A DNA stretch of 64,000 bases from the NCBI GenBank assembly GCA_019359015.1, contig JAHHID010000034.1, positions 1 through 64,000 on the forward strand, read 5' to 3'. The position numbers were made by a program, and so were the translations under genes. Of this stretch, positions 7,857 through 61,393 are shown one piece after another. Origin of the DNA: Spirirestis rafaelensis WJT71-NPBG6. GTDB taxonomy: Bacteria > Cyanobacteriota > Cyanobacteriia > Cyanobacteriales > Nostocaceae. Positions within the stretch are counted from its first letter, which is position 1. Every line of letters begins with the position of its first letter. Under the pieces are notes generated by a model. It made no database searches, was not told the DNA's origin, and worked only from the letters and a program-made list of their open reading frames with translations.

Positions 7857-9863
7857 ATGAAGCGTTTTATCAGCCTTGCCTTAATATCTACCTTTTTCGT
7901 ACCACTCAACGCGATCGCTGCACCCCCCAGGAACCCAGACAGAACCGTAAATTGTGACATCTTGGTTGTCGGTGGTGGATTATCTGGGGTTGCGACAGCT
8001 TACGAAGCTTTACTCGCTGGTCGCACAGTTTGCCACACAGAAATTACCGATTGGTTGGGAGGACAAATATCTTCTCAGGGGACATCTGCGTTAGATGAAC
8101 GTCCAACGCAACGCGCAAAGCAATTTTACTCTCGCGGTTATCTAGAATTGCGAAGCCGGATTGAGAAGAAATATGGCAAACTTAACCCTGGTAACTGCTG
8201 GGTAAGCGAATCTTGCTTTCTTCCCCGCGATGGACATGAAATTCTCAGCCAAATGCTCAAAGATGCGGAGAAACGCGGCAAAGGCAAGTTGCAATTATAC
8301 CCAAACACCGTAGTTAAAGAGTTGGAACTTAGTAGCGATGGCAAAATCATTAATAGTGCGATCGCGATCGAACACAAACCAACTGCTTCTACACCGCTCA
8401 ACACCTATACTTTATCTCAAAGCATCGAAGACTCTTATCGCTACGAAAACTCATCTAAATTCACTAAAAACATTATTCGCTTTGTCCCCAAACAAACAAG
8501 CAAAGCTGGTAGCAATACACCTAATTGGTACGTTGTAGACACCAGCGAAACCGGAGAAATTATCGCTCTAGCTGATGTTCCTTACCGTTTGGGTATTGAC
8601 GATCGCTCTTACTTAGAACCTTCTTCTTCTAGTGCCACAAATGACCAGTATTGTACTCAAGGCTTTACCTACACCTTTGCAATGGAGGCAACCAAAGAAC
8701 CCCAACCGCAAACAATGCCTTCATTTTATGAGCAGTACTCGCCATATTACAGCTATGAATTAAAGCGGTTAGCTAGTTTCCCGTTAGTTTTCACCTACCG
8801 TCGGATTTGGAGTCCCCAACCAGGACAGCCAGGACAATTTGGCGGTGTCAAGTTTACAAATCCCGCACCTGGGGATATCTCCATGCAAAACTGGACTTGG
8901 GGTAACGATTATCGCCCAGGAACCGCCGAAGATAATTTAATCTACTCCCGTCAACAGTTGCAAGCTAGCGGGCAATTGCAGCCCGGAGGCTGGATGGGTG
9001 GACTGCGGACAGACGCTTTACGCAAAGCTGAAGAAAATGCCTTTGGATATTATTACTGGTTGGTAGCCGGGACGACAGATTCTCAATTGGGAGATGGTGT
9101 AAAACAGCCGCAACCCAATAACCGCTTTCTTTCCGGGCTAAATTCGCCGATGGGCACAGTGCATGGTTTATCGAAATATCCTTACATGCGCGAAGGACGA
9201 AGAATTATTGGGCGTCCTAGTTGGGGACAACCCGCAGGTTTTATGATTTGGGAAATTGATATTTCTCGCCGCGATTACAGCGATCCGTATTACGCAACAA
9301 CACTGGGAAATAAAGAATATCGCAGGTTACGAGCAGCACTTTCTGGTTTAGAAGCTGCATCAGTACTTTCCGGACAAACCCCAGCACAAAACGCTGCGCG
9401 GCGGACTCGTTCCACTATTTTCCCCGATGCTATAGGTATCGGTCACTACGCCATAGATTTCCATCCCTGCATGACTAACAGCCCCCCAGAAGCACCTGGT
9501 AACAAAGAACGTGAGGGTGAAAGACGCGGCGCCGGACAAGCTTACCCCTTCCAAATTGCCCTGAGAGCGATGATTCCCCAGAAAATCGACAATTTACTAG
9601 TTGGGGGTAAAAGTATTGCTACCAGTCACATTGCCGCCGCCGCATATCGAGTACACTCATTTGAGTGGTCAGCTGGCGCCGCTGCGGGAACTATCAGTGC
9701 GTTTGCTTTGAAAAATGCGATCGCACCTTACCAACTAGTAGACAATTTGCCGCAACCAGAACCGCAACTCGAAGCGGTCAAACGTCTGTTAGAACAAAAT
9801 GGCAATCCTACTGCTTTCCCCGACACCTCAATTTTCAATCAAAATTGGGAAGATTGGAAATAG
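7857..9863 (+). CDS. Exported FAD-dependent oxidoreductase
   Basis: The 668-residue product starts with a signal peptide (hydrophobic residues 4-20, likely cleaved after AIAA). A Rossmann FAD-binding motif follows in CDILVVGGGLSGVATAYEA (residues 33-51, glycines at 39-44). The body resembles the FAD_oxidored (PF12831-type) family, including a C-terminal nucleotide-contact segment near NLLVGGKSIATSHIAAAAYR. The substrate is unknown. A cyanobacterial periplasmic or lumenal location is inferred from the signal. An AGGAG-type ribosome site (acaggagttg) lies upstream of the ATG. It stands alone, with repeat-rich spacers on its 3' side. Confidence 0.82.
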   Translation: MKRFISLALISTFFVPLNAIAAPPRNPDRTVNCDILVVGGGLSGVATAYEALLAGRTVCHTEITDWLGGQISSQGTSALDERPTQRAKQFYSRGYLELRSRIEKKYGKLNPGNCWVSESCFLPRDGHEILSQMLKDAEKRGKGKLQLYPNTVVKELELSSDGKIINSAIAIEHKPTASTPLNTYTLSQSIEDSYRYENSSKFTKNIIRFVPKQTSKAGSNTPNWYVVDTSETGEIIALADVPYRLGIDDRSYLEPSSSSATNDQYCTQGFTYTFAMEATKEPQPQTMPSFYEQYSPYYSYELKRLASFPLVFTYRRIWSPQPGQPGQFGGVKFTNPAPGDISMQNWTWGNDYRPGTAEDNLIYSRQQLQASGQLQPGGWMGGLRTDALRKAEENAFGYYYWLVAGTTDSQLGDGVKQPQPNNRFLSGLNSPMGTVHGLSKYPYMREGRRIIGRPSWGQPAGFMIWEIDISRRDYSDPYYATTLGNKEYRRLRAALSGLEAASVLSGQTPAQNAARRTRSTIFPDAIGIGHYAIDFHPCMTNSPPEAPGNKEREGERRGAGQAYPFQIALRAMIPQKIDNLLVGGKSIATSHIAAAAYRVHSFEWSAGAAAGTISAFALKNAIAPYQLVDNLPQPEPQLEAVKRLLEQNGNPTAFPDTSIFNQNWEDWK

Positions 9864-52203: not shown

Positions 52204-52279
52204 CTATTCATAATTTTGCGTAAATGGGACTCTGCCCGTTGTAGCAATAAAGAAAACCCTTCATTCACCCTTGGGCATC

Positions 52280-53953
52280 ATGCAAGTCTATTGCAGTAAA
52301 CAACACGCAAATAATCAGAGTAACCGATTTTGTATCCACTGCGGTGAGCCGTTGCCTCTAGCTACGGGGAAGGTGGTGGAGAATCGCTATCATATTTTAC
52401 GGCAATTGGGGCAGGGCGGTTTTGGACGCACTTATTTGGCTCTTGATAAAAATCAATCGAATGAAAATTGCGTGCTGAAGGAATTTGCACCCCAAGTTGA
52501 AGCGCAACAAGATTTATTAAAAGCGAAAGAATTATTTGAACGCGAAGCAAGTGTTTTAAAGAAACTTCAGCATCCGCAGATTCCGCGTTTTCACGCTTCG
52601 TTACAAGCTAAGTTAGGCAATAAAGATTTTTTCTTTTTGGTGCAAGATTATGTAGAAGGTGATAATTATTACGAATTATTAGAACAACGTCAAACTTTTA
52701 GTGAGGATGAGGTAATTAAGTTACTGCAACAAATTTTGCCTGTGTTGTCGTATATTCACTCACTAGATGTCGTTCACCGCGATATTTCTCCTGATAATCT
52801 GATTTTGCGGAGTTCTGATAATTTGCCGGTGTTGATTGATTTTGGCGGTGTGAAGCAATTACCTGCGAGTAAGGGTTTTTGGTTTACTCAGTTGGGTGGA
52901 AATCGCACGTTGTTGGGTAAAAAGGGCTACGCACCAGAAGAACAGTTACGTCAGGGAAAGGCTTTTCCAAGTAGCGATTTGTACTCTTTAGCGGTGACAG
53001 CGCTGGTATTGTTAACAGGTAAGGAACCGCAACATCTTTACGATAGCTATCAAGGTGTTTGGCGTTGGGGACAGGAAATTAAAGTCAGTTCGCAACTAGA
53101 AGCGGTGTTAAAAAGGATGCTTGCTTATAAACCAAGCGATCGCTATCAAACAGCGAATGAAGTTATCAAAGATTTAAACTTTTCTATCGCTGTTAAAGCC
53201 GCAAATCCGCACATAACCAAACTGAAAACTATGATAGCCGCTCCTGGGCGACAACGCGCTGGTGCTGTGGTGAGTAGTCTCCACAAAAGATCGCAATTAG
53301 TCGCTGGTGCGCTACCTTTACCTGTTTGGCTTCGTCCTTTTGCTGTTAGTTTGGTGGGGACAACTGCGGTTGTTTTAACTTTCGCTGGTACTTGGGCGGT
53401 AGTAAATGCCGTTGGGAGTGCTGTATCATCAATATCTGTATCTGTCCCCTCAATTTCTCTACCGAAATTACCGGGGGGATCGAATCCGGGAAGTAAACCC
53501 ACAAATGATAAACAAATAAGTCAAATTGTTAATCGTCGTGAAGAATTAGAAATTCCTCAAGGATTTTTTACCCGGACTGTCGATAATTTATTTTATACAG
53601 AAAAACCAGAATTACAGGGACGCACTCTTACATCTAACCCAGAAGATAATGCTTTACGCAAAGAATGGTACGGTGTAGCTGACAACTTGCTGGATAAACT
53701 AGAACAGGCTAAACTCAGTACGTCATCGCGTCGGAAGTTGGGAAATTACGGTTCTCAAGATTACGAGGCTTGGAGACGCAAAGCGCAAGCAGGACAGTTA
53801 GGTGATTATACAATTAGTCAATTGAACAGAGACACAAATCAAAAATTTGATCGCTTGTTCCCAGGTCAGCGACGTGGGAAACTCAATCAAAAGACTCTCG
53901 GTCAAATTTGGTATGCGATCGCTGCCGATCAAGTTAATAAACGACAACAATAA
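52280..53953 (+). CDS. Zinc-ribbon Ser/Thr protein kinase with C-terminal extracytoplasmic module
   Basis: The 557-residue product (ATG at 52280; TTG at 52271 also in frame) opens with a zinc ribbon (Cys5, Cys18, Cys21 and a His). A Hanks-type kinase domain follows (about 37-300): GQGGFGRTYLA, VLKEFA, VVHRDISPDNLI and LIDFGGVKQL. A membrane helix lies near 355-375. The final ~145 residues form a module with two similar halves, each having an F-x-x-L/P...G-R/K-x-L and W-Y/x-A pattern. The paralogue just downstream has the same module. The kinase probably signals from outside stimuli to cytosolic Ser/Thr targets. Confidence 0.88.
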   Translation: MQVYCSKQHANNQSNRFCIHCGEPLPLATGKVVENRYHILRQLGQGGFGRTYLALDKNQSNENCVLKEFAPQVEAQQDLLKAKELFEREASVLKKLQHPQIPRFHASLQAKLGNKDFFFLVQDYVEGDNYYELLEQRQTFSEDEVIKLLQQILPVLSYIHSLDVVHRDISPDNLILRSSDNLPVLIDFGGVKQLPASKGFWFTQLGGNRTLLGKKGYAPEEQLRQGKAFPSSDLYSLAVTALVLLTGKEPQHLYDSYQGVWRWGQEIKVSSQLEAVLKRMLAYKPSDRYQTANEVIKDLNFSIAVKAANPHITKLKTMIAAPGRQRAGAVVSSLHKRSQLVAGALPLPVWLRPFAVSLVGTTAVVLTFAGTWAVVNAVGSAVSSISVSVPSISLPKLPGGSNPGSKPTNDKQISQIVNRREELEIPQGFFTRTVDNLFYTEKPELQGRTLTSNPEDNALRKEWYGVADNLLDKLEQAKLSTSSRRKLGNYGSQDYEAWRRKAQAGQLGDYTISQLNRDTNQKFDRLFPGQRRGKLNQKTLGQIWYAIAADQVNKRQQ

Positions 53954-53968
53954 GGTTAGTGGTTGGTG

Positions 53969-53996
53969 GTAGAGACGCGATTAATCGCGTCTGTAC
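53969..53996. repeat. 28-bp palindrome of the gtagagacg family
   Basis: gtagagacgcgatt pairs with aatcgcgtctgtac with one mismatch. It is a relative of the 34653-34684 element. Confidence 0.75.
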
Positions 53997-54039
53997 AATG
54001 TTAGTAGTTAGTGGTTAGTAGTTCATAAAATAATTAACA

Positions 54040-54108
54040 ACCGACAACCAACAACTCACAACTCACAACTCACAACCAACAACTAACATCCAACCACTAA
54101 CTAAATTA
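54040..54108. repeat. caaccaacaac/aactcac tandem repeats
   Basis: Three tandem aactcac heptamers are flanked by caaccaac units immediately upstream of the second kinase. Confidence 0.7.
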
Positions 54109-54110
54109 TT

Positions 54111-56327
54111 ATGAATTTCGTTTATTGTTCCAAAGGACACGGAAATCCTGCTGGTAGTAGCTTTTGTCTTCATTGTGGTGAAAAGCTAAATCAAAATCTG
54201 ATGAGTCAGGGTATCCAACCGGGACAAACTTTAGGCGATCGCTATATTATTGTACGTCTACTCGGTCAAGGAGGGTTCGGACGCACTCATTTAGCTGAAG
54301 ATATCAACCGCTTTCGGGAACTTTGTGTTTTAAAGGAATTCTCCCCCCAAGTTCAAACTCCCTACGTTTTACAAAAAGCCGAAGAACTGTTTCAGCGAGA
54401 AGCAACTGTTCTTTACAAATTGCAACATCCGCAAATTCCCCGCTTTCGAGAATTGTTTCGCAGCAACTTGGGCGGTAAAGAATATCTCTTTTTGGTGCAA
54501 GATTATGTAGAAGGGCAACCTTACAACGCTTTATTAAATACTCGCTTACAGCAAGGTTTGCGGTTTAGTGAAGCCGAAGTGCGTCAATTGTTGCTGCAAC
54601 TTCTGCCAGTTTTAGATTATATCCACTCTTTGGGAGTTATTCACCGGGATATTTCACCCGATAACTTAATTCTTCGCACCGCTGACCAATTGCCAATCTT
54701 AATTGACTTTGGCGGGGTGAAACAAGTCGTCGCAGCCGTCGCTTCAGAATATTACCAAAACGGTGCAGGTGCGGCTACACCAGCCGCAACGCTACTCGGT
54801 AAGGTGGGATACGCGCCCTCAGAACAGATGCAAACCGGGCTGGTGTCGCCTCACAGCGATTTGTATGCTTTAGCCGCAACCGTGTTAGTTTTACTGACAG
54901 GTAGACAACCGCAAGATTTAATTGATACTCATACGCTAACTTGGCAATGGCGACGCGAAGTTAGTTTAAGCCCGAATTTGGGACAGGTGTTAGAAAGAAT
55001 GCTATCACCTAGACCAAGCGATCGCTTTCAATCTGCGCGGCAAGTATTAGAAGCATTAAAGACATCACCTGTCAACTATCCGCCCACTCAATATCCTCCG
55101 ACCGAATCAACATCTGCCACCGTAGCAGTAGCCCCCCCTCCCCCTCTCTCCCCCTTGCCCCCAACCCCACTTCGTGGGGACCCCAAAGCCCCCACTCCTC
55201 CGTCCCCCGATATTCCTCAACCACAAAATTCGTGGACATCAGGAAAAAGCTTGCTGGTAGGATTGGCGCTAGCTGGGGTTGTTGGTATTGGTTGGTTAGG
55301 AACAAACTTGATACTGTCTCGTGGCGGAGATTCTTCACAAGATACGTCGCAACCTACACCCGACGTTACACCAAGCAATAATCAGCCAACCGATCCGCTA
55401 GCGCAGTACTCACCAGAAGAACGCGCACGAAAAGAAAGATTACGCGATCGCCGTGAACAATTAGGTATAGATTCCAATTTTTATGTTAACTTGGTAAATC
55501 AAGTCTTTTGGGAGAGAAATCCCAGCTTAAAGGGACGCAAACTGAGCGATAATCCTGAAGATGACAGCTTGCGGGCTGAGTGGGATAAAACAGCCGCCGA
55601 ATTGTTAGATAAGCTTGCGCCACTGAGTAGAAATGCACGTCAGCAATTAGGAAATTATACAGCAGCACAACGCGATCGCTATAAAGCCCAAGTCAATAAA
55701 ATCAACGTTGGTAGTCGTTCTTTGTATGATTTGGGCGATGCGGCATTTTATCAGCAATTTCCCGAACAGCGCGGTAAAAATTTTACAAATACACCCATCG
55801 GACAAGTTTGGCAAGGATTTGTTAGTGATAAAGTTCAGGCGATCGTTTCAGGTAGAGCTTTTGAGAAACTTGTATTTGATCAAGGTGCTAACGGCAAAAC
55901 TGTTAGCGGTACTCTCAAAGCTGCTGATGGCAAAGTATTTATTGCTGAACTTGCCAAGAATCAATTCATGGATATTAAACTACAAGCAAATTCGCAAGTT
56001 TTGCTATCAGTTTATTCACCTTCTGGCAAAATCAAATTTTTAGAAGATTCTACAAAACGTTCATTATCTACTGAACTTTCAGAAGACGGATATTATGAGT
56101 TTGTCGTCGTTTCCACAGCATCAAAACCACTAGATTATAAACTTAGCATCACCGCCGAAAATCCCGCACCAACGCCAATACTCACACCGACACCCACGGA
56201 AACTTCTACACCGATACCAACGCCAATATCAACGCCAACACCAACACCGACACCGACACCCACGGAAACTTCTACGCCAACATCCACACCGACATCGACA
56301 CCGACTCAGACTGAGACAAAACCTTAG
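54111..56327 (+). CDS. Zinc-ribbon Ser/Thr protein kinase with PT-rich tail
   Basis: The 738-residue product has an N-terminal zinc ribbon (Cys6, Cys19, Cys22) and a kinase domain (about 40-310; GQGGFGRTHLA, VLKEFS, VIHRDISPDN, DFGGVK). A Pro-rich linker (about 325-375) and a membrane helix near 382-402 follow. The duplicated module shared with the upstream kinase spans about 440-580. Next is a beta-sandwich-like domain (about 585-685; VSGTLKAADGKVFIAELAKN, PPC-like). The low-complexity Thr/Pro tail (about 688-735) is encoded by cgacaccg-type repeats. It is an enlarged paralogue of the preceding kinase. Confidence 0.88.
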   Translation: MNFVYCSKGHGNPAGSSFCLHCGEKLNQNLMSQGIQPGQTLGDRYIIVRLLGQGGFGRTHLAEDINRFRELCVLKEFSPQVQTPYVLQKAEELFQREATVLYKLQHPQIPRFRELFRSNLGGKEYLFLVQDYVEGQPYNALLNTRLQQGLRFSEAEVRQLLLQLLPVLDYIHSLGVIHRDISPDNLILRTADQLPILIDFGGVKQVVAAVASEYYQNGAGAATPAATLLGKVGYAPSEQMQTGLVSPHSDLYALAATVLVLLTGRQPQDLIDTHTLTWQWRREVSLSPNLGQVLERMLSPRPSDRFQSARQVLEALKTSPVNYPPTQYPPTESTSATVAVAPPPPLSPLPPTPLRGDPKAPTPPSPDIPQPQNSWTSGKSLLVGLALAGVVGIGWLGTNLILSRGGDSSQDTSQPTPDVTPSNNQPTDPLAQYSPEERARKERLRDRREQLGIDSNFYVNLVNQVFWERNPSLKGRKLSDNPEDDSLRAEWDKTAAELLDKLAPLSRNARQQLGNYTAAQRDRYKAQVNKINVGSRSLYDLGDAAFYQQFPEQRGKNFTNTPIGQVWQGFVSDKVQAIVSGRAFEKLVFDQGANGKTVSGTLKAADGKVFIAELAKNQFMDIKLQANSQVLLSVYSPSGKIKFLEDSTKRSLSTELSEDGYYEFVVVSTASKPLDYKLSITAENPAPTPILTPTPTETSTPIPTPISTPTPTPTPTPTETSTPTSTPTSTPTQTETKP

Positions 56328-56444: not shown

Positions 56445-58412
56445 TTACCGTCTTAGCGGAATGCGAAGTACTTGCCCAGGAACAAGTACAGTTGGGTCGG
56501 GTCCAATCACATCTCGATTAGCCTCGTAGATGAGATTTAACAGATTGCCATCTCCATCTCCATAAGCTCTCTCAGCTATCAAAAATAGATAGTCACCTTG
56601 TTGCACAAGATATGTTTGACCAGGTACGGGTGTAGTGTTTCCTTCCAGTATTGGAATGTAAAGTATCTGCCCTAGTATGAGCGAGTTAGGGTTAGGTCCA
56701 ATCACATTTTTGTTAGCGTCGTAAATTACTCTGAAGAAACTCTCATTACCGTAAGCTCTCTGAGCTATCTTCGACAGATCGTCACCTTGTCCCACAACAT
56801 ATGTTCTGCTAGGTATGGGTTGTTGAATTGGCGGGGTGGGGAAATTTCGAGGTTGGTTAGGCAAGTTCTTCAGGAAACTGATACTTGGCGAGAAAAAGTA
56901 CTCACCCCCCTTGAGTGTGACAAAATTTGCAAAGTTGACATCGACTTTCTTGGTTGGTTGATCCCGCTCTTTTAACCAATTTTGGGGTGGCTTCGGCTCT
57001 TCTTTAATCAGGGGGTCACTCTGACCAGGTAAGCTTTGACCACTTACTGCATCCAATCCGGTCTTGTCGTAATTTTTATTTTCTACATTGCGGGACTTGG
57101 ACATATCGGGTTCAAGGAATCTGGGATTGTTGCTCCAGAACCGTTGAATAAACTCAAACTGTTCCCAGATATCAGACTGGTAGCACATGAATAGCAACCC
57201 AACACCACCCTTAGGTAGATTATCGAGGTTGCCAGAGAAGTTGCTGAGTAGTCCATAGGTCATTCCGCGCCGCGCAATGCGATGTCCAAGCTCCTGATCT
57301 TTGCTTTGGGCAAAAGGTCCACCTTTTCTGACCGATTCGTTTCGGGGATTGGTCGTGCGAAGATGCGACTGGAATGGGCATTTTAGTCCAGCAGGATCGC
57401 TAGAATAGCTAAAGTTATTTAGGTTAGTACCCCCGTCACTGGACTTGATAACAAGTGGAGTGCCATCTTCAAAACGTCCCACTGCCATTGCACCAGCCAG
57501 CTTAGGAGAAATCCCTAATGCTTGACCCAAGGCAACTTCAGCCTTTTTGAATCCTTGAACATTTTGCTCAAGTTTGCGAAAGACAAGAAAACTACCAAAG
57601 CTAACATTTTGAGTGCCAAAAGGATCTGGAATCAGGACAAGATTGAGTGGTGCGCTGAAAAGTTTTTTAGCGGTTTCGCCTTCTTCCAGGTCTACATCTT
57701 GCTTGAAAAAGAGCGGTTTACCGATACCATCTGTAAAGCCAAAATGCTCAACAACACTCTTTTCTGGAGAATTTTGAAACTCTCGACGTACCGTATTGGC
57801 TCGTTCGATAGTGGCTATCGTCGCAATATCCTTCAGATTTTGAAGAATTTCTGATTCTTTATTACTCAGATCTGTTGGATTGTTAGCTGCAATGATTACC
57901 AACGCATCAATTTCCGGCTGGAATCCTGGCTCCCAAGCGCTAACTGGCGGGTCTATAAGTGCGTACTGTCGCGTCTTCATACCGTTTTGGAAGACATCAG
58001 CGTAGTCATTGTTAAGTTGGTTTTCGGTAGGGTTAGGTTTTGTTCGTTTTTGAAGATTGGCACCTTTCGGTTGAATAGAATCAGGGAAACCTAGTTTTTC
58101 GTAGCCTGAGGAAGATAAAGAGAAGTGTACAAATAGACCACCATCAATTTTTTTCTCCCTCCAAGCAACAGCATCATCTAACTGCTTTTTGGCTGATGTA
58201 ATATTTTGAGCGGCAAATTGAGCGATCCATTGCCTAAGTGCAACAATTTTTTCTGGATTTTCCCTGGTATTGGGAAAAGTTAAGAAAATCTGTACAGAGT
58301 TGTTTCTTCCATGTGGTTTGAGAATGTTGCCTTGCAAGTCTTGAAGAACATCTTGATATTCTTGTTGGGTATGGTCAATTGGTGCTTTGTTGGAATTGAG
58401 GTCTAATGGCAT
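56445..58412 (-). CDS. DyP-type heme peroxidase with two C-terminal LysM domains
   Basis: The 655-residue product has the DyP core with GFTDG at 225-229 (catalytic Asp228) and proximal heme ligand His350 in CPFQSHLRTTNPR. The distal LLFMCYQSDIWEQFE segment is typical of the family. After a Pro-rich linker, two LysM domains follow at about 537-588 and 600-652, each with the G-D-x-L-x-x-I-A-x-R-A-Y-G pattern. LysM domains bind peptidoglycan or chitin-like glycans. I see no signal peptide, so either export is non-classical or binding occurs after lysis. An aggtatttctggag ribosome site lies upstream of the ATG. It is the last gene of the cluster with the GMC-DUF1080 fusion. Confidence 0.88.
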   Translation of the reverse strand: MPLDLNSNKAPIDHTQQEYQDVLQDLQGNILKPHGRNNSVQIFLTFPNTRENPEKIVALRQWIAQFAAQNITSAKKQLDDAVAWREKKIDGGLFVHFSLSSSGYEKLGFPDSIQPKGANLQKRTKPNPTENQLNNDYADVFQNGMKTRQYALIDPPVSAWEPGFQPEIDALVIIAANNPTDLSNKESEILQNLKDIATIATIERANTVRREFQNSPEKSVVEHFGFTDGIGKPLFFKQDVDLEEGETAKKLFSAPLNLVLIPDPFGTQNVSFGSFLVFRKLEQNVQGFKKAEVALGQALGISPKLAGAMAVGRFEDGTPLVIKSSDGGTNLNNFSYSSDPAGLKCPFQSHLRTTNPRNESVRKGGPFAQSKDQELGHRIARRGMTYGLLSNFSGNLDNLPKGGVGLLFMCYQSDIWEQFEFIQRFWSNNPRFLEPDMSKSRNVENKNYDKTGLDAVSGQSLPGQSDPLIKEEPKPPQNWLKERDQPTKKVDVNFANFVTLKGGEYFFSPSISFLKNLPNQPRNFPTPPIQQPIPSRTYVVGQGDDLSKIAQRAYGNESFFRVIYDANKNVIGPNPNSLILGQILYIPILEGNTTPVPGQTYLVQQGDYLFLIAERAYGDGDGNLLNLIYEANRDVIGPDPTVLVPGQVLRIPLRR

Positions 58413-58479
58413 TATTTACTCCAGAAATACCTTGTGTGTTTTTCGATTAAGCGATCGCTTTCTTGCTGTTATGGTTAGA

Positions 58480-58506
58480 TTCCCGACTTATTGAAGAAGT
58501 CGGGAA
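58480..58506. repeat. Hairpin repeat ttcccgactt...aagtcgggaa
   Basis: A 10-bp perfect stem (58480-58489 with 58497-58506) and 7-base loop lie in the spacer between the interrupted small gene and the DyP gene. It is related to the 56358-56391 element. Confidence 0.75.
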
Positions 58507-58538
58507 GGAACGCAAGGAGCGATCGCACTAAGAGTGTT

Positions 58539-58820
58539 CTAATTGAGGTCTTTGATTAAATCGCAACTCAAAGATGGCTCTACCTTGGCAGAATCCATAT
58601 TCGAGGTGATGCTGACGACCACGCAACGCTGATTGGTTGGATTGACTCCACTTGGGTCTAACGTTGCCAAATCAACTTTGTAATAAATGGTGTTGTTCCT
58701 TCCGAATGATGGCTAACCTCGTCGGATTTGTAGGATTGCCTCTTTCTCACCGAGTACTGTTGATGCCACCTCAACACACTTCTCGATTAAGCGATCGCGC
58801 TGTACTGTGTCCTTAGTCAT
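58539..58820 (-). pseudogene. Small gene interrupted by one in-frame TAG, inside the oxidoreductase/peroxidase cluster
   Basis: On the minus strand the ATG at 58818-58820 opens a frame MTKDTVQRDRLIEKCVEVAS that runs 35 codons to a TAG at 58713-58715. It continues in the same frame as PSFGRNNTIYYKVDLATLDP... to a stop at 58539-58541. The full span is 93 codons with one nonsense codon and no frameshift. The second half reads like ordinary protein (NQRCVVVSITSNMDS). It starts 17 bases after the GMC-DUF1080 stop, so it belonged to the same operon. The TAG could come from a Gln or Trp codon by one base change. No family recognised; readthrough or a sequencing error are alternatives. Confidence 0.65.
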
Positions 58821-58837
58821 GGTTATTTATCTTTTAA

Positions 58838-61393
58838 TTACAATTCTTTAATCCGAATGTTGCGGAACTGAACGACCTCGGTATGGCACTGCAAGCCAAT
58901 GAAACCTTCTGAACGCTTCTTCTTACCGTCGCTGGGATCGGCAAATCCTAGGAGTTCCGGGAAGGTTCCTGCACTAACCAATTGGTTATTCAGTTTGACT
59001 TCAATCTCATTGCCTTGAACTGTGATTTCATAGCTGTTCCAGTAGCTTGGATTACCAGAGTTGCGGGGGCTGATTACCTTAGCAGCCCATCGTTGAGCGG
59101 GGAAAACCTCGTATACTGCACCCGTCTTGTGTAAGGGGCTACCGTAGATGTTATTGGGAAAGTCGTTACCGCGCTCATCGATTTGGATTTCGGTGCTGGA
59201 GTGATAGAAGTTATCCTTATCATCAAGAGCCTTAGGTTCTGGTGTTCGCAGGAAGATACCAGAATTAGCTTCGATGTCAAAGGCTTTCCATTCCAACTTC
59301 AAGATGAAATCCTTGAATTGTTTGCGAGTAAACCAGAGAACACCAAGTCCGACGCTCTTATCACCAACACCTGCACCTAGAACTGGGATACTTTGATTTT
59401 GCACATCAAAGAAGTTTTGGCTACCTGATGTTGCTATTTCCCAGCCATCAGTCTTGAAGTTGCCGCGATAAAGGGTTTCAAAGCCTTGTTCTTCGCCAAC
59501 ATTCGCAACTTCGGTGTAGCGTTCAATAATTGAGCGAGCAATCTTACGAGATAGGGTTAGTCCTGTGGGCACTGGATTGGCTGAACCAACAGTGGGGAAA
59601 ATCGACTGATCTACACAGTAGGCATTAGATACGTGGTGGAAACGACCATTAACATCTGTGACGGATTTGGTGTAGTCAGTGCCCATCCAGAGGGTGCCAG
59701 ATTCATGATAGGTAGTTCCAGATGGATCTTCGCCTCCACCAAAGAAATGAATTGGAGCGTTATCATCGCGACTGGTTGCACTGCCTGGGGGCTGGTTAGC
59801 TAACGCCTCAATGAAGGCAAAAGCTGCTTGAGCCTGAGCCACTCGAACAGCTTTGTCATCAGGCGTTTCAACTAAATTTACAAAGGCTTTAGGTATCCGC
59901 AGGGGCTGACCGTTCTCAAAGTAGACATCATCGCCAGTGCCGCCGAAAGGATTAACACTCATCCAACTGACGTTGTTATTGCTATCAATGGGGCTGGTTC
60001 TGTAGCCAAAAGTTTCTCCAGTGGTGCGAATGCCGATAACAACTCTGTCCCCCAGACCTTTCTGGGCTTCGAGAATCGACTGCACATCATCTAAATTGGG
60101 TATCATCCGGTACAGAAACTCTTCTGGATTGTCAGCGGCACCGGGGAAGGCTCCTGTATTCACATTGGGAGCAGCATAAAATTGAAAATGGAATTGCCCT
60201 GCTCCCTGTGATGTCTGAGTTGAACCTTGAACATGCAACGCAGCAGTCCTCAAAGTGGTATCAGTTGCTGTGATTCCTAGGGCATTTCGGGAGACTTTCC
60301 AGACAAAATTACCACGAACGTGGGACATCAGGTTTCGCCCCATCAACTCTCCACCAGGCGCTAATTGACGGGGACGAGGGAAGGAATTTAAAGCTAGGCG
60401 TGTGGAGTTGATAGTATTGCCAGCGATGATCACCATAGCACTGGGCTTGAGATTCAACCTCACCACACGAGCTTTGCTCTTATCCTTTGGCGCAGAGGGA
60501 TCGACCAGAGCAACCACAACCTGGGTTACAACGCCATTGACTGTTTCTAGTTTGATAACTTCAGCGTAAGGAACCAGGAATAGCTTACTTGATAGATCTC
60601 CTTTCTCTTTGGCTTCGCGGATGGAGTCGAGCAGTAAAGGTAGGCTGCTGAACTTATCGATGCTGAACAAGCCAGAAACCGGTGACTCACCCTGCACGGC
60701 GATTGGCGGTGGCAGTACTGCTTTGAGAGATGGGACACGCTGCTTTTCGATAATGTCCTTGCCGCTTTTGAACAACGCATCATACAAAGAGCCCTTGATA
60801 AAGTCTTGGACAGGATAGGCACCGATTTCTCGCTCAATAAACTCATATCCATCAGATACAGACCCATCTGGCTGAGTTTTGCGGAATAGATACTCCTGAA
60901 CATCCTTAGGCCACAGCCTATCGCCATTTTCATCGACTTTCTCAACATCAGCATCGACTAAACGTGGTGTCCATCCTCCCCAGAAGAGTGATTTGCCACC
61001 TATACAGCGATGGTGTTGGACAAAAGAAGAACCCCGCACTTGACCTGGATCAACCAAGTTTTCTTCCACAAGCGAACCGATATCGCCTACACGAGTTAAG
61101 TTTTGAACATGTTCGCTAATCAGAAATGGACCAGACTCTAAAACCAAAACTCGTGGGGCTTGGTCTGGATTTGCCGTCCGGCGACCAAACTCGAATAGCT
61201 TGGTAGCGGTGTATGCACCATACATCCCTGAGCCAATTACCACCGCGTCGAACTCACCACCTGCTTGTGCTGCTAGAATTTCTTCCCAGGTATTGCAAAC
61301 GAAACGAGCGATCGCATCTATTGAGAATGTCGTTCTTTGGATGTCTGGAAGCTGAATTTGTTGTCCAGAATCTACTAATTTATTCAATGGCAT
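58838..61393 (-). CDS. GMC oxidoreductase fused to DUF1080 (3-keto-glycoside hydrolase-like) domain
   Basis: The 851-residue product has two parts. Residues about 45-630 form a GMC flavin oxidoreductase: FAD motif AVVIGSGMYGAYTATKL (GSGMYG at 54-59), CIGGKSLFWGGWTPR, the active-site segment HESGTLWMG (His563), and ANPVPTGLTLS (Asn606). Residues about 638-851 match DUF1080: LYRGNFKTDGWEIA, EWKAFDIEANSGIFLRT, SSTEIQIDERG, and WNSYEITVQGNEIEVKLN. DUF1080 members include enzymes cleaving 3-keto-disaccharides, and GMC enzymes include glycoside 3-dehydrogenases. The fusion suggests oxidation then cleavage of a glycoside in one chain. No signal peptide seen. It is the first gene of the cluster. Confidence 0.88.
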   Translation of the reverse strand: MPLNKLVDSGQQIQLPDIQRTTFSIDAIARFVCNTWEEILAAQAGGEFDAVVIGSGMYGAYTATKLFEFGRRTANPDQAPRVLVLESGPFLISEHVQNLTRVGDIGSLVEENLVDPGQVRGSSFVQHHRCIGGKSLFWGGWTPRLVDADVEKVDENGDRLWPKDVQEYLFRKTQPDGSVSDGYEFIEREIGAYPVQDFIKGSLYDALFKSGKDIIEKQRVPSLKAVLPPPIAVQGESPVSGLFSIDKFSSLPLLLDSIREAKEKGDLSSKLFLVPYAEVIKLETVNGVVTQVVVALVDPSAPKDKSKARVVRLNLKPSAMVIIAGNTINSTRLALNSFPRPRQLAPGGELMGRNLMSHVRGNFVWKVSRNALGITATDTTLRTAALHVQGSTQTSQGAGQFHFQFYAAPNVNTGAFPGAADNPEEFLYRMIPNLDDVQSILEAQKGLGDRVVIGIRTTGETFGYRTSPIDSNNNVSWMSVNPFGGTGDDVYFENGQPLRIPKAFVNLVETPDDKAVRVAQAQAAFAFIEALANQPPGSATSRDDNAPIHFFGGGEDPSGTTYHESGTLWMGTDYTKSVTDVNGRFHHVSNAYCVDQSIFPTVGSANPVPTGLTLSRKIARSIIERYTEVANVGEEQGFETLYRGNFKTDGWEIATSGSQNFFDVQNQSIPVLGAGVGDKSVGLGVLWFTRKQFKDFILKLEWKAFDIEANSGIFLRTPEPKALDDKDNFYHSSTEIQIDERGNDFPNNIYGSPLHKTGAVYEVFPAQRWAAKVISPRNSGNPSYWNSYEITVQGNEIEVKLNNQLVSAGTFPELLGFADPSDGKKKRSEGFIGLQCHTEVVQFRNIRIKEL

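Follow-up and report, generated by a model that had tools for sequence, protein, structure and literature searches.

Oxidative glycoside cleavage and a candidate single-chain version

The 3-keto route of glycoside cleavage is known from systems in which the oxidoreductase and the cleavage protein are separate. In Caulobacter crescentus, genetics led to the proposal of a 3′-ketolactose route that combines LacABC with a DUF1080 protein, whose gene lies beside that of the lactose 3-dehydrogenase; LacABC is membrane bound in the periplasm, a putative signal peptide precedes the DUF1080 protein, and the DUF1080 family includes a 3-ketotrehalose hydrolase (PMC9007349). In the route of the glycoside 3-oxidase PsG3Ox, 3-keto-glycosides are cleaved by TIM-barrel Mn2+ eliminases (PMC10628242). 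Here, we describe a locus from Spirirestis rafaelensis WJT71-NPBG6 (source genome of 7.07 Mb in 143 contigs), situated in a stretch of 64,000 nucleotides of contig JAHHID010000034.1 that we refer to as the window, in which a GMC oxidoreductase and a DUF1080 (PF06439) domain are joined in one polypeptide encoded next to a DyP-type peroxidase.

The locus resembles the Caulobacter system in that a putative sugar 3-oxidizing flavoenzyme and a PF06439 protein would act one after the other and are encoded near each other. It differs in that both parts form one chain, that no signal-like stretch is seen, that a DyP is the partner, and that the Gluconate_2-dh3 family is unmatched in the genomes searched. 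We take LacA to be a GMC enzyme and LacC to be a member of the Gluconate_2-dh3 family. Glycoside 3-oxidases and C-glycoside oxidases (PsG3Ox and the structures 7dve and 7qva) are also comparable: they are among the best fold matches of the fusion, a His-Asn pair is shared by motif, and the flavin adenine dinucleotide (FAD) is probably non-covalent in both. Unlike the fusion, however, PsG3Ox-type enzymes have no DUF1080 domain attached, and their sequence identity to it is low. Fungal pyranose oxidase and peroxidase systems, which supply H2O2 to lignin-type peroxidases, share with the proposal below a sugar oxidase that provides peroxide to a peroxidase, but they are secreted, unfused, and devoid of a ketosugar-cleaving domain. 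Among the papers listed by the literature searches, which covered few subscription papers, none describes a fusion of this kind combined with a DyP. The new parts are the fusion, a dedicated DyP clade, and the swapping of modules in place; the mechanism is plausible, mostly inferential, and akin to the pairing of LacA with DUF1080.

We propose, with a probability of roughly 0.45, that the gene pair encodes a soluble, probably intracellular cassette for oxidative deglycosylation, consisting of an oxidase, a cleaving domain fused to it, and a DyP that uses H2O2. The substrate would be a glycoside or disaccharide with a glucosyl unit, on which the GMC half would oxidize a secondary hydroxyl, most likely the one at C3; the FAD of this half would be reoxidized by O2 to yield H2O2. 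The ketosugar would be passed within the same chain to the DUF1080 half, which would break the labile glycosidic bond by elimination and hydration, and the neighboring DyP would consume the H2O2, either on a released phenol-like aglycone or in plain disposal. If this is true, the covalent joining of two steps, together with a dedicated peroxidase, would make ketosugar channeling and the fate of H2O2 testable in one gene pair and would offer a candidate function for a distinct DyP clade. To our knowledge, the physiological roles of DyPs are mostly unknown.

The fusion and one clade of peroxidases form a conserved pair

The fusion gene (58838..61393, minus strand) is a single open frame of 851 codons on which Pfam recognizes both GMC_oxred_C and PF06439, so the chain is composed as the initial annotation had read it. 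The DyP gene (56445..58412, minus strand; 655 residues) lies 425 bp downstream on the same strand, with an interrupted small gene in between. With the window's DyP as the query, the only hit in the genome at E ≤ 1e-5 is the protein itself, and PF06439 likewise has one match there; both are these neighbors. The named sequences nearest to the fusion come from Scytonema.

One scan of a collection of 84,980 species yielded 15 distinct loci. Scanning 388 genomes of the window's order with the fusion (E ≤ 1e-30) gave matches in 12, including one with a GMC fragment only (G276) and one cut by a contig end (G311), and plasmid records gave four more matches, three of which were examined. Left out before counting were L044, a near copy of L043; L046, which has no GMC part; and L003 and L047 to L059, which were replaced by longer stretches or are the same records as those used. 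The 27 stretches compared, including the window, comprise 26 that hold the fusion family, three of them with incomplete fusions (L061, truncated; L068, at a contig end; and L071, the GMC fragment of G276), and one from Streptomyces (L045) with a broken GMC gene only. Pieces of the Streptomyces gene (8001-9145 of its stretch) match the GMC half of the fusion, but a single TGA breaks the matched region, and DUF1080 is not detected in the gene. L043 and L044 are two contigs of Mastigocoleus testarum with the same 18.5-kb locus and identical gene layout, perhaps an assembly duplicate.

The initial annotation had treated the fusion and the DyP as one candidate system on the basis of a single locus, to be refuted if the two genes proved not to be neighbors in other genomes; their adjacency does recur elsewhere. 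A DyP lies beside the fusion, or beside a fragment of it, at 19 of the 26 loci and at both second copies examined (L107 in Nostoc sp. WHI and L115 in Nostoc sp. KVJ20, whose fusions are only 41 to 51% identical), which makes 21 of 28, in either gene order. The next most recurrent neighbor, a small gene, is present at 6 of the 26 loci, and no family besides these two occurs at more than 5 of 26, rarer neighbors not having been annotated systematically. Full pairs were assembled for 18 loci (L067, L068, and L071 were left out because of a distant DyP or partial contigs). The two genes of these pairs are always on the same strand, 19 to 917 bp apart, with the DyP downstream in 15 and upstream in 3 (L060, L064, and L042, a metagenome-assembled genome [MAG] of Polyangiaceae); the flanking genes mostly differ between loci.

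A DyP scan of apparently the same 388 genomes gave matches in 47 at E ≤ 1e-60. DyPs with an identity of 58% or more to that of the window were present in 9 of the 12 fusion genomes and in 0 of the 376 others, the remainder being at most 47% identical (Fisher P = 4e-16, a value that is overstated, since kinship was not corrected for); when all 47 matches were counted, the figures were 9 of 12 and 38 of 376, and a slightly different tabulation (10 and 37; P = 1.5e-8) carries no weight here. In a maximum-likelihood tree, all 18 partner DyPs formed one clade (support, 100/99) apart from 21 other cyanobacterial DyPs, namely, those with loci given by the same scan; the DyP of L067 was not included. 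We therefore reject chance neighborhood (21 of 28 loci, 9 of 12 versus 0 of 376 genomes, a single DyP clade) and conclude that the fusion has a tight, conserved link to one clade of DyPs.

Within the order, the distribution of the fusion is patchy (12 of 388 genomes), and one fusion-DyP pair is borne by a predicted conjugative plasmid. Wider searches at E ≤ 1e-80, a threshold at which divergent fusions would be missed, detected the fusion in 3 of 244 genomes sampled from the phylum, a sample of unreported composition by order, with each of the 3 belonging to the order of the window, and in 1 of 282 genomes from the phylum of the Polyangiaceae MAG, the MAG itself. A link to viruses was considered and rejected: viral contigs gave six pattern matches, and no relative is encoded at any of them.

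Both halves of the fusion retain conserved residues

The GMC part covers residues 1 to 628 (59510..61393, minus strand), a boundary that is approximate and derived from Pfam and the alignment of fusions. GMC_oxred_C matched residues 496 to 612 with 56.0 bits, and the N-terminal GMC model of Pfam gave no match in the fusion at E ≤ 0.1. The N-terminal region carries a G-x-G-x-x-G motif, and a profile of 15 fusions matched a solved glucose dehydrogenase over profile positions 46 to 189. Among solved structures, this profile detected glucose dehydrogenase, fructose dehydrogenase, and pyranose oxidase at E values of 9e-11 to 1e-7 and 5-hydroxymethylfurfural (HMF) oxidase at 3e-7; sequence models identify the GMC half to superfamily level only. 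The fusion is outside the pyranose oxidase equivalog TIGR02462 (23.6 bits versus a cutoff of 544.9). When an AlphaFold2 (AF2) model of the fusion was compared with solved structures by Foldseek, the FAD-dependent C-glycoside oxidase 7dve ranked first, followed by fructose dehydrogenase, pyranose 2-oxidase, and glucose dehydrogenase. Next came 7qva/7qfd, in which a bacterial enzyme that we take to be PsG3Ox was solved with mangiferin or glucose. The comparison suggests a resemblance of the GMC half to C-glycoside and pyranose oxidases as a class, not to a specific enzyme.

His563 (codon 59705-59707) and Asn606 (codon 59576-59578), both encoded on the minus strand inside the GMC part, are invariant in all 17 aligned fusions. 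They correspond to H440 and N484 of PsG3Ox by motif and spacing (43 versus 44), not by direct alignment. In PsG3Ox, both residues are essential, with inactive alanine variants, and the FAD is non-covalent despite His127 at the flavinylation position (PMC10646112). The fusion reads S-L-F-W at this position, with Phe where PsG3Ox has His127 (aligned by eye), and because the histidine is missing, its FAD is likely non-covalent.

The DUF1080 domain occupies residues 645 to 849 (58847..59461, minus strand). PF06439 matched with 108.6 bits against a curated cutoff of 26.8, and this half aligns almost end to end with solved DUF1080 proteins. It is highly divergent, falling to 31 to 37% identity with the window's domain. 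Glu735, Gln737, Trp785, Asn786, Asn802, Gln835, and His837 are invariant in 17 of 17 fusions. N710-S711-G712, W785-N786, N802, Q835, and H837 are identical in seven fusions and in the two canonical repeats of the L046 protein (Planctomycetaceae), and the counterparts of E735 and Q737 in solved relatives are Glu and Gln. The literature searched yielded no paper that assigns catalytic residues in the DUF1080 family. As judged from these alignments, the DUF1080 part retains most residues conserved in canonical DUF1080 proteins, which supports the initial annotation on this point.

The partner peroxidase is probably cytoplasmic

Pfam identified DyP_N (27.8 bits; cutoff, 27.5) and Dyp_perox_C (24.5 bits; cutoff, 20) in the window's DyP, which scored 93.7 bits against TIGR01413 (E = 1.3e-26; cutoff, 100.5). 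G225, D228, and G229, which we take to be the GxxDG motif, and H350, presumably the heme-ligand histidine, are invariant in 17 of 17 aligned DyPs. The closest solved structure of the DyP part is Alr1585 of Anabaena (5c2i; E = 1.6e-93), which was not in the tree and, unlike the window's DyP, has no LysM domain in its 468-residue chain. Two C-terminal LysM stretches, at about residues 537 to 588 (56649..56804, minus strand; approximate ends) and at residues 601 to 652 (56457..56612, minus strand), confirm the DyP-LysM architecture first noted on the fusion's strand.

The cell-wall-directed, LysM-anchored system that had been proposed on this basis is not supported, and we have dropped wall anchoring of the DyP. 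LysM is present in 12 of 17 aligned DyPs and missing from 7 of the 18 partner DyPs of full pairs; it is therefore an accessory of some DyP lineages and not a clade-wide feature. When solved structures were searched, the LysM stretches matched the potassium-binding protein Kbp best, which is cytoplasmic. Hydropathy over the first 45 residues revealed no signal-peptide-like stretch in any of 18 fusions or 18 partner DyPs, and since a hydrophobic N-terminal stretch is missing, both proteins are probably soluble and cytoplasmic.

Modules are exchanged between conserved flanks

Comparison of closely related loci indicated replacement in place. Between L032 (Scytonema sp. NIES-4073) and L072 (G015), 429 bp upstream and 5.9 kb downstream, including the DyP gene, are each 88% identical at the DNA level; the DyP proteins are 94% identical, whereas the fusions share 44% (GMC) and 36% (DUF1080) of their residues. 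L069 and L070 have flanks that are 95 to 97% identical and GMC halves with 81% protein identity, and their DUF1080 halves are 40% identical. The DUF1080 half of L069 is instead 68% identical to the window's and groups with the Scytonema type in a tree, the exact join being weakly supported (84/63). In L033, the DyP is gone, and another FAD enzyme (PF01494) occupies its place between the same flanks. Because modules have been replaced between conserved flanks in these three cases, we conclude that oxidase gene, cleaving domain, and peroxidase behave as exchangeable units. Such exchange could reflect a change of substrate or diversifying selection. A more specific version of the proposal, which we consider unlikely, is a cassette of closed stoichiometry: each glycoside would yield one H2O2 and one aglycone, a dedicated DyP would oxidize that same aglycone, and modules would be swapped under diversifying selection such that the glycoside handled changes and the circuit stays.

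Genes of the alpha-amylase family (PF00128) were observed near three fusions. One (L062, 8406-10310) overlaps the stop codon of a Rhizobium plasmid fusion, one (L069, 4663-6552) lies 76 bp upstream of the fusion, and one (L060, 12006-13901) lies 3.4 kb downstream. They hint at an alpha-glucoside or alpha-glucan substrate, an observation made post hoc that we do not count as evidence. On an Azospirillum plasmid (L061, 6040-6843), a truncated fusion consisting of the GMC end and DUF1080 is found near an IS3 transposase gene and an M4 metallopeptidase gene; L060 also has an M4 gene within 6 kb of its fusion.

Weighing the proposal against alternative explanations

Several observations count against the proposed cassette. 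The AF2 model of the fusion is weak (predicted local distance difference test score, 67.6; predicted template modeling [TM] score, 0.60) and has no reliable domain interface. The Foldseek matches give a class and not an enzyme because their TM-scores, normalized to the first seven targets, are 0.48 to 0.63 and because GMC enzymes that do not act on sugars follow close behind (fatty acid photodecarboxylase at rank 12 and HMF oxidase at rank 15). GMC oxidases and dehydrogenases have a common fold, and the use of O2 is unreadable from sequence. Of the two canonical L046 repeats, one lacks Glu735 and Gln737, and a lectin-like role of the DUF1080 half is conceivable. Because an endo-glucanase with reported activity on xanthan and lichenan is among the DUF1080 relatives (PMC10881899), a 3-keto substrate is not guaranteed. 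As for the partner, the DyP at L067 is distant, with 25% identity to that of the window, and 7 of the 28 loci lack an adjacent DyP (L033, L035, L043, L061, L062, L069, and L070). Searched with the window's DyP at E ≤ 1e-5, the genomes of L033, L043, L069, and L070 yielded nothing, and the fusion can therefore persist without it; for L061 and L062, both plasmid records, the chromosomes were outside the search, and L035 shares a genome with L107, which has a DyP.

These points leave room for other readings. The DUF1080 half may be a non-catalytic, carbohydrate-binding beta-sandwich that places the GMC oxidase on a glycan, the fusion then being an H2O2-making sugar oxidase that feeds the DyP. DUF1080 is structurally like GH16 (PMC10881899), and both the divergence to 31 to 37% identity and the uneven retention of Glu735 and Gln737 in the canonical L046 copies would suit a binding module. 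However, Glu735, Gln737, Asn802, Gln835, and His837 are invariant in 17 of 17 fusions, the last three also in both L046 copies. These are positions at which one would expect drift if the module did no more than bind, and we consider this explanation unlikely as well. A further alternative concerns the electron acceptor: the GMC half may be a dehydrogenase that does not use O2, with the DyP serving the pathway otherwise, for example, in tailoring a glycosylated secondary metabolite with peroxide from elsewhere. Fructose and glucose dehydrogenases are indeed among the fold and profile neighbors, and the DyP is not adjacent at 7 of 28 loci. On the other hand, the main conserved partner is a peroxidase, and no other family exceeds 6 of 26 loci, with the same proviso on the annotation of neighbors. 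Moreover, Gluconate_2-dh3 (PF13618) gave no match in 6 of 6 fusion genomes searched, and the Caulobacter control was positive. Because of the DyP partner and this absence, which adds a little support, we favor O2 as the acceptor and regard a non-O2 dehydrogenase as rather improbable.

Exchange of modules also invites the view that the pair is an H2O2 weapon or defense module, in which the fusion makes peroxide that is toxic to competitors, the DyP shields the producer or strengthens the attack, and swapping reflects diversifying selection. The contrast in L032 and L072 between fusions of 44 and 36% identity and a DyP of 94% within flanking DNA of about 88%, the DUF1080 segment replaced between 95 to 97% identical flanks in L069 and L070, the patchy occurrence in 12 of 388 genomes, and the pair on a predicted conjugative plasmid would all be in keeping with it. 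Swapping also fits a change of substrate, though; a secretion-signal-like N terminus was not seen, and no common immunity or secretion gene was evident (no other family at more than 5 of 26 loci, rarer neighbors not being annotated systematically), which makes this role quite doubtful. Finally, most loci come from a single cyanobacterial order, as might be said in favor of a neighborhood that is coincidental or merely inherited. The occurrence of both gene orders, the mostly different flanks, the Polyangiaceae MAG, and the two genomes in which a second fusion, 41 to 51% identical, has its own DyP render that explanation extremely improbable.

The interrupted small gene and flanking genes of the locus

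The small gene between the fusion and the DyP (58539..58820, minus strand; about 94 codons) is split by a single in-frame TAG at 58713-58715, as the initial annotation had noticed. Since uninterrupted relatives of 94 to 95 codons exist, the frame is the remnant of a real gene. Across the 28 loci, the gene is intact at 5 (L034, L039, L040, L041, and L072), where it sits between the fusion and the DyP, damaged at 2 (the window and L032, in which the first part is missing and the second part alone was found), and not found at 21. Among the 388 genomes of the order, it occurs in 3, always at the fusion locus, one being the interrupted copy of the window. An essential third component is rejected on these grounds: the gene is intact at only 5 of 28 loci and dispensable. 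Its AF2 model (pLDDT, 87) comprises a helix and three strands and matched no PDB structure at E ≤ 0.001; Pfam detected nothing in the two intact copies scanned, and a small-gene profile matched PDB sequences at E values of 0.36 and worse only. Between the interrupted gene and the DyP gene, a perfect 9-bp hairpin with a 7-base loop and no T tail was seen by eye at 58481-58505; a terminator scan did not report it.

Beyond the fusion, the other flank of the pair carries a Nudix gene (Pfam), and a gene on that side presumably encodes phosphoglycerate kinase. Past the DyP, on the opposite strand, Pfam identifies a protein kinase gene, next to which lies another gene that resembles it. These two genes (52271-56327, plus strand) cluster with a 2,084-residue neighbor of the fusion in L041, and this kinase family alone among the window's outer flanking genes recurs, at that one other locus.

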